A stretch of DNA of 38,710 nt from Chloroflexota bacterium (GTDB lineage: Bacteria; Chloroflexota; Anaerolineae; Anaerolineales; VGOW01): the NCBI GenBank assembly GCA_016197225.1, contig JACPWC010000082.1:1-38710 (forward strand). The letters run 5' to 3'. The notes beneath the pieces are model-generated. The model did not search any database and had not been told where the DNA came from. It saw nothing but the letters and a program-made list of their open reading frames with translations. Shown in pieces: positions 10,059 through 32,715 of the stretch; position 1 is the first letter of the stretch, and every line of letters starts with the position of its first letter. The position numbers and the translations under genes are program-made.

Positions 10059-10070
10059 AGTTCAATTTTC

Positions 10071-10110
10071 AATGCACAATACACAATGCACAATTGAGAA
10101 TTGTGCATTG
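10071..10110. repeat. Inverted repeat between carbamoyltransferase and carbamate kinase genes
   Basis: Positions 10084-10095 (caatgcacaatt) and 10099-10110 (aattgtgcattg) form a perfect 12-bp stem with a three-base loop. A direct second copy of the word aatgcacaata lies at 10071-10081, so the left arm is quasi-tandem like the other intergenic elements. It sits inside the presumed ygeW-arcC transcript. Confidence 0.75.
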
Positions 10111-10126
10111 TTATTTGTGAATTGCC

Positions 10127-11107
<981 letters not shown>

Positions 11108-14635: not shown

Positions 14636-14827
14636 CTACTTATCACCATGATACCCCTTCACAAACTGCTTCACCACAAACCGCACAATCTCGGCACCGA
14701 AGGCCAGCGCCAGCACCGCCACCACAATTGCCACCTCGCCCAGCCCCACCCGCCGGAACAGCCAGGTGATGGCGGCCAGCACGGCGAAGAGGGCGAAGAG
14801 GAGGGAGAGGCGGGAGAGGAGGTTCAT
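14636..14827 (-). CDS. Small two-TM membrane protein
   Basis: The 63-residue product has two hydrophobic segments (about residues 4-22 and 30-50) joined by FRRVGLGE, with a basic C-terminus. No family is recognised. Its ATG overlaps the stop of the upstream amidohydrolase gene as TAATG, which strongly suggests translational coupling and supports it being a real gene. The position within a purine operon suggests a membrane accessory role, but nothing in the sequence says what that is. Confidence 0.65.
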   Translation of the reverse strand: MNLLSRLSLLFALFAVLAAITWLFRRVGLGEVAIVVAVLALAFGAEIVRFVVKQFVKGYHGDK

Positions 14828-16263
14828 TACCCATCCACCAACTCTTTCGCAATCCCATTATGCTTCTCAACCACCGGCCCCAAATCCACCGTCGTCAACT
14901 GGCCTTCCTTCACCACCCACTTGCCGTTCACCATCACGTAGTCAGCTTTTTGCGGGGCGCAGAAGAGGACGGAGGCAACCGGGTCGTGGACGGCGGCACC
15001 GGCATAGTCAAGGCGGTTGAGGTCAATGGCGAAGAGGTCGGCGCACATGCCCTTTGCCAGCGAGCCGATGTCGTCGCGGCCCAGCACCTTCGCGCCACCA
15101 AGTGTCGCGATCTCCAACGCCTCGCGGGCCGTCATCCACTCCCCCTCTCCTGTCGGCGCGTCCTTCGACTTCGCTTCGCTCCGCTCACGCTTCGCGTGCG
15201 CCGACGGGAGAGGGGGCCGGGGGGTGAGGGCCAACCGGGCCAGCAACATCGCCTGCCGTGCTTCGCCAAGGAGGTGCGAGCCATCGTTGGAAGCCGAACC
15301 GTCCACCCCAAGCCCCACTTTCACACCGGCGGCCCGATACTTCTTCACCGGGGCAATGCCGGACGCCAGCCGCATGTTCGACGACGGGCAGTGTGCGGCT
15401 CCACAGCCGGTTTGCGACATCAACCTGATCTCAGAATCGTTGACGTGAACGGCGTGGGCGTACCAAACATCCGGCCCCACCCAGCGCAAAGTCTCCATGT
15501 AGTCCACCGGGCGATGGCCGAACTTCTCTAAGCAAAAATTCTCTTCGTCGAGCGTCTCGGCCAGGTGAGTGTGCATGGTCACGCCATATTCACGCGCCAG
15601 CGCCGACGACTGCTTCATCAGTTCCGGCGTCACCGAGAACGGCGAGCACGGCGCGACCACGATCCGCAACATCGCGCCGTGCATTGAATCATGATAAGTC
15701 TGAATGAGTCTCTGGGTGTCCTTGAGAATCTCGTCTTCGTCCTCCACCACGCTGTCGGGCGGCAGGCCGCCTTTGGACTCGCCCAGACTCATCGAGCCGC
15801 GTGAAGCGTGAAAGCGAATGCCGATTTCTTTGGCCGCCCGAATCTCGTCGTCTAGCTCCGAGCCGTTCGGGAAGAGGTAGAGATGATCGCTGGCAGTGGT
15901 GCAACCCGAAAGCAACAACTCGGCCAGACCCGTGAGCGCCGAAACATAAACAGCCTCAGGCGTCAGGCGCGCCCAGATCGGATATAAAGTTTTGAGCCAG
16001 TTGAAGAGCGTTGCGTTTTGCGCGGCAGGGACAGCGCGAGTGAGAGTTTGATAGAGATGATGATGGGTGTTGACAAGGCCGGGGAGGACGATGTGGCCGC
16101 TCATGTCAATAACGTGGGCTTCCATCACCGTCGGCAGTTCGTTCGTCGGGGCAACCGCCTCAATCACCCCGTCGCGGATGATCATCCCGCCGTTCTGAAT
16201 CTCCCGGCGGGCCGGATCCATTGTCACCAACACGTCGGCATGGCGAAGAACTATGGTCGTCAT
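14827..16263 (-). CDS. 8-oxoguanine deaminase/SsnA-like amidohydrolase with in-frame palindromic insert
   Basis: The product is about 478 residues, from the AtzA/TrzN-type amidohydrolase group. Visible metal-site motifs are NTHHHLYQ (His67-His69), MHTHLAET (about 230-237), a Trp-Tyr-Ala-His-Ala-Val-His segment (267-273) and GVDGSASND (319-327). NTHHHLYQTLTRAVP and LFNWLKTLYPIWARL match the 8-oxoguanine deaminase subgroup, which also resembles SsnA of the E. coli purine-catabolic region. It probably deaminates a guanine-type purine in the cytoplasm. Residues about 346-376 are a repeat-encoded insert (LTPRPPLPSAHAKRERSEAK and on). ATG 16263 has GGGAGG upstream and lies just inside the predicted transcript, whereas the TTG at 16290 lies at the transcript start and is rejected. 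It is the first gene of the purine locus. Confidence 0.9.
   Translation of the reverse strand: MTTIVLRHADVLVTMDPARREIQNGGMIIRDGVIEAVAPTNELPTVMEAHVIDMSGHIVLPGLVNTHHHLYQTLTRAVPAAQNATLFNWLKTLYPIWARLTPEAVYVSALTGLAELLLSGCTTASDHLYLFPNGSELDDEIRAAKEIGIRFHASRGSMSLGESKGGLPPDSVVEDEDEILKDTQRLIQTYHDSMHGAMLRIVVAPCSPFSVTPELMKQSSALAREYGVTMHTHLAETLDEENFCLEKFGHRPVDYMETLRWVGPDVWYAHAVHVNDSEIRLMSQTGCGAAHCPSSNMRLASGIAPVKKYRAAGVKVGLGVDGSASNDGSHLLGEARQAMLLARLALTPRPPLPSAHAKRERSEAKSKDAPTGEGEWMTAREALEIATLGGAKVLGRDDIGSLAKGMCADLFAIDLNRLDYAGAAVHDPVASVLFCAPQKADYVMVNGKWVVKEGQLTTVDLGPVVEKHNGIAKELVDG
15136..15231 (-). repeat. In-frame palindromic element inside the 8-oxoguanine-deaminase-like gene
   Basis: Arms at 15141-15159 and 15198-15216 match as reverse complements at 18 of 19 bases (ccccctctcctgtcggcgc against gcgccgacgggagaggggg). 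The 38-base loop is itself rich in complementary words (cgcttcgctccg, cacgcttcgcgt). A ccggggggtgagg tail follows. The whole unit adds about 31 codons without breaking the frame between two conserved helices of the enzyme. Confidence 0.85.
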
Positions 16264-16294
16264 CAACCCTCCCGATGGTTTGTCATACAAAGTT

Positions 16295-23893: not shown

Positions 23894-23981
23894 AGTGAAC
23901 AGTTATCAGTAAACAGTTATCAGTGGTCTCTCCACTACTAATAACCCATAACTGATTACTGTTCACTTTTCACTGTTCACT
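23894..23981. repeat. Intergenic inverted repeat (agtgaacagttatc family), copy 1
   Basis: The left arm repeats agtgaacagttatc, and the right arm repeats its complement (gattactgttcac, ttcactgttcact), giving a long imperfect hairpin with an AT-rich loop. It fills the gap between the ATPase stop and the permease start and reaches into the ATPase stop codon. About 90 of 100 aligned bases, including the loop, match the element at 27683-27769 in the paralogous operon. Confidence 0.85.
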
Positions 23982-27682: not shown

Positions 27683-27769
27683 AGTGAACAGTTATCAGTG
27701 AACAGTTATCAGCGGTCTCTCCACACTAATAACCAATAACTGATCACTGTTCACTCTTCACGGTTCACT
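27683..27769. repeat. Intergenic inverted repeat (agtgaacagttatc family), copy 2
   Basis: The same element as at 23894-23981, in the same place of the paralogous operon: between ATPase stop and permease start. Two copies of agtgaacagttatcag in the left arm face actgatcactgttcact and cggttcact in the right arm. The ggtctctccac loop is shared with copy 1. Confidence 0.85.
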
Positions 27770-32650: not shown

Positions 32651-32715
32651 GATGACGAAAGACGATGGACGATGGACGACGGCTTGCCATCGTCAGTCGT
32701 CCTTCGTCTTTCGTC
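32651..32715. repeat. Intergenic inverted repeat (gacgatggacgatgg family)
   Basis: The left arm is gatgacgaaagacgatggac plus a further gatggacgacgg. The right arm is ccatcgtcagtcgtcc plus ttcgtctttcgtc. The unit ga(c/t)ga(a/t)g is tandem within the arms and only a four-base loop separates them. It fills the gap between the ParB stop and the amidohydrolase start. Confidence 0.85.

Follow-up and report, generated by a model that had tools for sequence, protein, structure and literature searches.

A dispersed palindromic repeat family with a copy in frame in a predicted 8-oxoguanine deaminase gene of a Chloroflexota bacterium

The palindrome within a predicted deaminase gene of this Chloroflexota bacterium belongs to a family of dispersed, non-autonomous palindromic repeats resembling REP and MITE hairpins, and this membership has been shown within its own genome. 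The strongest new result is that the same loop of the deaminase has been occupied repeatedly by palindromes in other lineages. The best explanation, with a probability of about 0.8, is that a mobile copy of the hairpin family entered the deaminase gene in frame at a loop that tolerates changes in length. The copy was found in a stretch of 38,710 nucleotides that was analysed as a whole and is referred to here as the window.

The arms of the window palindrome lie at 15141-15159 and 15198-15216 (no strand assigned). They are 19 nt each, 95% complementary and separated by a spacer of 38 nt. The window has 18 listed pairs of inverted repeats, and of these it is the sole one of at least 16 nt with more than 90% complementarity. 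Folded as RNA, the palindrome gave z-scores of -4.5 on the coding (minus) strand and -6.8 on the plus strand against dinucleotide shuffles, and none of 200 shuffles folded as well on either strand. The pair of 19-bp palindromic arms that the first-pass annotation had described at 15136-15231 is therefore real and better than expected of shuffled sequence. The whole element, a C-rich head followed by the hairpin, lies at 15141-15230 on the minus strand; covariance model R1, built from ten copies other than that of the window, matched 15142-15215 with an E value of 2.3e-9. The head, CCCTCACCCCCCGG, occupies 15217-15230 (minus strand) by sequence comparison, and its CTCACCCCCCGG part has the same letters in copies C16:80262 and C39:5340. 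A genome pattern search placed a second dispersed repeat, CCTTCGACTTCGCTNCGNTCCGCTCA, at 15162-15187 on the plus strand. It occurs at nine places in the genome at up to 3 mismatches, including the window and the C66 copy of the hairpin family, and the reversed control gave none. Because the hairpin loop holds this second repeat, the window copy is composite, with one dispersed repeat nested in another. Hairpin loops in genomes G039, G128, and G284 are likewise filled by motifs resembling the second repeat. The window also contains other inverted repeats: two alike of the AGTGAACAGTTATCAGT type at 23894-23981 and 27683-27769, perhaps a further dispersed family; a short-unit repeat (CAATGCACAATACACAATGCACAATT) at 10063-10124, just past the end of the ORF at 10127-11107; and one of the GACGATGGACGA type at 32654-32715, of 30 nt and 87% paired.

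The host gene is an amidohydrolase at 14827-16290 on the minus strand, identified by its ORF and profile matches. The ORF is intact and runs uninterrupted through the palindrome, with a reading of 487 aa. The protein matched NCBIfam NF006055 (8-oxoguanine deaminase) with 689.9 bits against a cut-off of 532, and the insert lies inside a Pfam Amidohydro_1 match at residues 67-459. Solved relatives include 3hpa and 7ww2/8is4; the latter are titled isocytosine specific deaminase, so that 8-oxoguanine deaminase is a predicted name and the substrate could differ. Orthologue alignments and an AlphaFold (AF2) model assign 31 codons (LTPRPPLPSAHAKRERSEAKSKDAPTGEGEW) at 15136-15228 on the minus strand to the element, corresponding to residues 355-385 of the 487-aa reading, or 346-376 when numbered from the first ATG, in agreement with the coordinates and peptide proposed earlier for an in-frame insert. 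The accompanying statement that the element adds about 31 codons holds for the residues encoded; relative to orthologues the protein has gained a net 26 aa, with some residues of a shorter loop replaced. The phmmer match to 3hpa is interrupted at the insert, from residue 357 to 384. The AlphaFold model has a mean pLDDT of 86.5, and its sole internal stretch below 50 comprises residues 359-382; such a value is expected of any insert without homologues. These residues are flanked by helices 340-355 and 388-402, as the first-pass annotation had claimed for the insert. On the suggestion of a surface loop, the model provides the low-confidence stretch between two helices, from which a loop that is exposed and distant from the active site may be inferred. 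Because dN/dS is about 0.11 for the window gene against that of G004 and 0.11 for G004 against G003, the gene appears to be without sign of decay, with synonymous sites near saturation.

Relatives without the insert have been found at short and long distance. The same-genus genomes G003 and G004 have a short loop at the site, a net difference of 26 aa; G002 holds a deaminase fragment of 139 aa only and G001 gave no deaminase match. The insert is absent from 18/18 aligned distant orthologues (18 of the 29 loci found, all from distant bacteria), so residues 346-376 are lacking in every one of these relatives. Alignment suggests that the window element replaced the short loop of the deaminase. 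Comparison of insert-bearing loci with their close neighbours again shows replacement: the carriers are missing LSNDPNR or a similar stretch at the place of the palindrome.

The family is widespread in its own 4.8-Mb genome. Model R1 gave 66 strand matches at E <=0.01, counted as 41 hairpins at 37 places. These are minimum numbers, as the covariance model scored 150 of the 2310 first-look candidates. The palindrome of the window thus recurs at 36 further places at least, in other genes, several frames, and both orientations. A divergent copy, C114:107256, was not among the model matches and is excluded from the count. An exact pattern of the arms occurred at 10 places with 10-40 nt between the arms, matched the window copy at 45-75 nt, and gave none in the reversed control. 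A BLAST search of the same genome returned 9 matches including the window's own, some of them to the second repeat, and has been superseded by the covariance model. By eye, the monomer reads as a C-rich head (about CCCYCACCCC), an outer arm (about CCCCTCYCC), YG, a middle stem (about 4-9 bp) varying between copies, a terminal loop often near AANNRCA, the complementary stem, CA, and GGRGAGGGG. The outer arms and the loop are conserved among copies, and the middle stems vary yet remain Watson-Crick paired. In the ten copies, pairing reached 96% and two-sided changes numbered 26, shuffles giving 9.0; 1 cell among 156 was G-U. Pairing fell to 56% when the partner was shifted by one column. The inner stems of 37 copies contained 213 Watson-Crick, 2 G-T, and 36 mismatched positions in a count that ends at two successive unpaired positions and so favours Watson-Crick pairs, a rule not used for the ten copies. 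Many of the mismatches are C-A adjoining the outer arm. Because G-T is almost absent, these data suggest that pairing of the stems is maintained at the level of DNA. Inverted dimers also exist, with a second hairpin at four places by the model and two more dimers by eye. Most copies have the C-rich head at one end; in long ones, for example C104 and C121, both ends carry it. Some copies are intergenic, for example adjoining tRNA-like sequence or gene ends. By eye, a copy at about 1500-1560 of locus L135 directly follows an apparent tRNA 3' end.

Many copies lie within genes. Open frames of at least 150 aa, antisense included, cover 32/37 places, as expected because the DNA is GC-rich. In the author's judgement, 19/37 copies occupy true in-frame positions inside genes, a count that selects open frames and is therefore uninformative on the number of insertions lost. 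For 18/19 of these the position is backed by an in-frame Pfam match or an aligned orthologue, and for C31 by the open frame alone; in 6/19 host genes the element lies inside the Pfam match. The host proteins include the window deaminase and proteins like MobA, ValS, class IV aminotransferase, FGE-sulfatase, GH31 N-domain, PabB, adenylate cyclase, Elp3, SbcD, Cas6, and JetD, as well as two of YfhO type, other membrane proteins, and others. The copies in C66 and C75 are near an N-terminus with an uncertain start. Of six frames, 4.68 were free of stops in the 37 copies and 4.74 in dinucleotide shuffles; six-frame openness does not exceed that of the shuffles and gives no support to an element shaped for coding.

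The deaminase loop itself has been filled more than once. Deaminase matches were obtained from 206/251 genomes, a part of which was read: 110 loci of the order in three rounds (29, 21, and 60), which with the window makes 111; 44 of the last 60 are from family f11, so that the sample is enriched for one family. Anchors located the loop in 105/110 loci and the other five, without inserts, were judged by eye. Palindromic inserts were found in the same loop in 10/110 loci, or 11 with the window, all in frame. The ten belong by eye to several classes and one is decayed; two ordinary loops flagged by the motif search (L260 and L043) were not counted, and a hairpin in L272 and a decayed hairpin in L290 were added by eye. 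All ten are in f11 (10/53 loci, against 0/57 in the others). In a tree of 106 rows built without the loop by a quick method, with SH-aLRT support only, each insert carrier is a separate tip; the distribution takes 11 changes, at least 5 of them forced by starred branches, and shows no clustering relative to shuffles. Differences among the three class B inserts amount to 2-5 of 51 sites, and those among their flanks to 32-42 of 150. Because the inserts are nearly identical while the flanks have diverged, one kind of source has reached all three tips in recent time, through either insertion or short-tract exchange. Short-tract recombination spreading inserts between lineages would lower the number of independent events.

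Recurrence has also been observed at other host sites. Ten sites were compared in 31 orthologue-site cells, some judged from protein only; 9 hold another palindrome and 22 hold none, although two of the 22, in sbcD of G006 and in the C121 host of G004, could be copies that have decayed. From the counted matches, which are minimum counts, at most 0.03 occupied cells would be expected against the 9/31 seen. Outside these cells are C55 and C72 (apparent paralogues), C2a and C75 (one aligned relative each, ambiguous), one-sided alignments, and C29a, C29b, C31, and C2b, for which no orthologue was aligned. In mobA, the element of the own genome (G000) is oriented opposite to the elements found in G004, G002, and G006. 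In elp3, four relatives are occupied and G001 and G003 share one copy. The sbcD gene of G004 holds a dimer with both stems different and that of G002 is empty, and the C16a host in G004 holds another flavour of the element. A membrane-protein loop is repeatedly occupied in the same manner. The valS gene of G002 (L161) has a different short-unit repeat in the same protein loop, with the peptide PTPITNYQLPTT. Separately, the C16b host of G004 (L150) has another repeat-like stretch in the palindrome's protein loop, with the peptide DPQFAIRNAE. Across genomes, the model matched at least 33/61, including the own genome, with the best candidates scored. The arm pattern matched 141/301 genomes of the phylum, an upper view of the family, as many of these genomes are matched by the reversed control too, a few of them more often than by the pattern. 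The highest counts among the 301 were 202 and 137 exact matches in G248 and G310 (controls 6 and 0).

Under the preferred reading, the element would have been inserted in frame into the deaminase gene once its lineage had separated from the nearest relatives compared, replacing about six codons of the short loop with about 31, and would have been tolerated owing to the position of the loop between two helices and its variable length. Copies may move as hairpins through a trans-acting enzyme, the favoured candidate being a single-strand transposase of HUH type, which acting in trans would account for the conserved shape. C-rich or accessible sites may attract the copies, and purifying selection would retain insertions only where they are in frame, free of stops, and located in loops or linkers. 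Mobilisation is a probable step in this scheme; no transposase for the element, target-site duplication, or strain-level pair of presence and absence was found, and the nearest empty sites, in which no target-site duplication was seen by eye, are diverged and show replacement.

A possible but doubtful alternative is a REP/BIME system in the strict sense, moved by a REP-associated tyrosine transposase (RAYT). Head-plus-hairpin monomers and inverted dimers are present, the genome has a RAYT-like Y1_Tnp gene, and hairpin and Y1 counts were correlated (Spearman 0.36, p 0.004), while presence of hairpins against Y1 genes gave a Fisher p of 0.09 at either threshold; both tests used 61 genomes with minimum counts, uncorrected for genome size and kinship, and point to a weak link between the hairpins and Y1 transposases. 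Against a RAYT, the palindromes that precede the own Y1 gene (L140, 3760-3900, by eye) are others, including CCCATGAATGAATTCATGGG. No family hairpin was found up to E 0.1 in 10 loci covering 9 Y1 genes, which rules against a RAYT acting in cis, and genomes G026, G030, and G060 have at least 6, 17, and 9 hairpin matches yet no Y1 match. By eye, the ends of the elements show no GTAG or CGTC tag and the heads of the 37 copies are C-rich, and the weak test of searching the window for GTAG-N10-CTAC gave none. A 580-aa Y1-like ORF at C85 looked by eye unlike a plain transposase.

An origin of the palindromes in place, through template switching or conversion between C-rich stretches and not through transposition, is rather unlikely. 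This origin keeps some probability because the empty loop of a close relative (L308) already has TCCCTCTCC at the junction, and the replacement of loop codons and the variable, paired inner stems with almost no G-T would also fit it. The head sequence that the window element shares with other copies outside the hairpin argues against it, as does the 90-96% identity of class B inserts at three separate tips. A regulatory hairpin with a function in the gene, such as an attenuator, mRNA stability element, or bypass element, is very improbable: the fold is very stable and other copies lie between genes, yet the hosts are unrelated, the position within genes varies, a bypass needs neither stop-free nor in-frame sequence, and the only Rfam matches were to miRNA families, all far under the gathering score (23 bits against 77). 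That the insert is a normal variable loop of the enzyme is hardly tenable, for although loop lengths by anchors range from 6 to 32 residues, 77/105 located loops have 17 residues (8 more at 24 include seven residues of the preceding helix), those of 25 or more consist of hairpin sequence, one of it decayed, and for the window gene the short loops of the same genus and the 18/18 distant orthologues refute it.

Entry of a mobile hairpin copy, the preferred reading, bears on how proteins change. The proteins here seem to be supplied with ready-made additional loops from repetitive DNA, and the data suggest a repeat origin for LTPxPSP- and RGEGxGVR-like stretches in this group's proteins. A broader and unlikely extension would have the hairpins, with outer arms and loop fixed and the paired middle stem free to vary, recognised by shape and not by sequence, moving as folded single strands and preferring certain protein loops; if true, they would steadily supply parallel diversification of loops throughout a bacterial order. 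Two questions have become testable: by what means the hairpins move and select their sites, and whether new protein loops come from repeats.

In-frame coding palindromes have reportedly been described, in the title of one study, as a unique but recurrent feature of Rickettsia. They were later found in a few groups besides Rickettsia. The NCBIfam library contains models of Rickettsia palindromic elements (RPE), and these were absent among the NCBIfam matches listed for 5/19 host proteins (the best 25 of 64 and the best 25 of 33 for the first two). As far as the accessible portions of the literature describe them (PMC10969869; PMC2229807), RPE are short dispersed palindromes in frame in unrelated protein genes. 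The family described here resembles RPE and the Wolbachia coding palindromes of Ogata, Claverie and colleagues, as excerpted, in being dispersed and in frame in unrelated genes, and resembles RPE in that orthologues in relatives lack the insert. It differs from the RPE of those accounts in being GC-rich with a C-rich head, in its variable Watson-Crick stems, and in the repeated occupation of one loop across the order. The parallel drawn by the first-pass annotation thus stands for behaviour, in which the hairpins work like RPE, and membership by sequence is no more than possible. An apparently unrelated family behaves like RPE in a 4.8-Mb genome, with the same loops occupied in parallel in many lineages.

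Other repeats offer further comparisons. In the available part of PMC3733652, GTAG/CGTC REP hairpins and dimers have been reported inside ORFs of Opitutus terrae, Rickettsia conorii, and Thauera, with dimers or groups of intragenic REPs amounting to 20-30 aa, two Xanthomonas species with different REPs at about the same recB site, and GTAG repeats in Chloroflexi. The window family shares with these the hairpins and dimers inside ORFs, lacks the GTAG/CGTC tag, and is not among the REPs described in that part. It likewise resembles REP/BIME in its short hairpin monomers and inverted dimers, and differs in having no tag and in that the Y1 genes scanned are without the same repeats. A REP survey (PMC12306157) tabulates three Chloroflexota genomes in the portion available. 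No earlier description of the hairpin family was found among the best-ranked papers of the literature searched, which covers few subscription journals. Nematomorph mitochondria have long mismatch-free inverted repeats inside genes (PMC6649704, in excerpt); these lie in animal mitochondrial genes, both arms code conserved parts of the protein, and no dispersed hairpin family is described in the excerpt. Repeats that are non-autonomous and whose open frames have become fused to genes are reported in partial texts of PMC2759123 (enterobacterial RU elements) and PMC2229807, and the window family is like ERIC/RU, Correia/NEMIS, and other bacterial MITEs so described in being non-autonomous and fused in frame to genes. 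In the table of PMC2229807, terminal inverted repeats characterise most of the MITEs and target duplications several of them; no target duplication was seen in the window family. Overall, its features leave the family unassigned between REP and MITE, as a variant among the in-frame coding palindromes.
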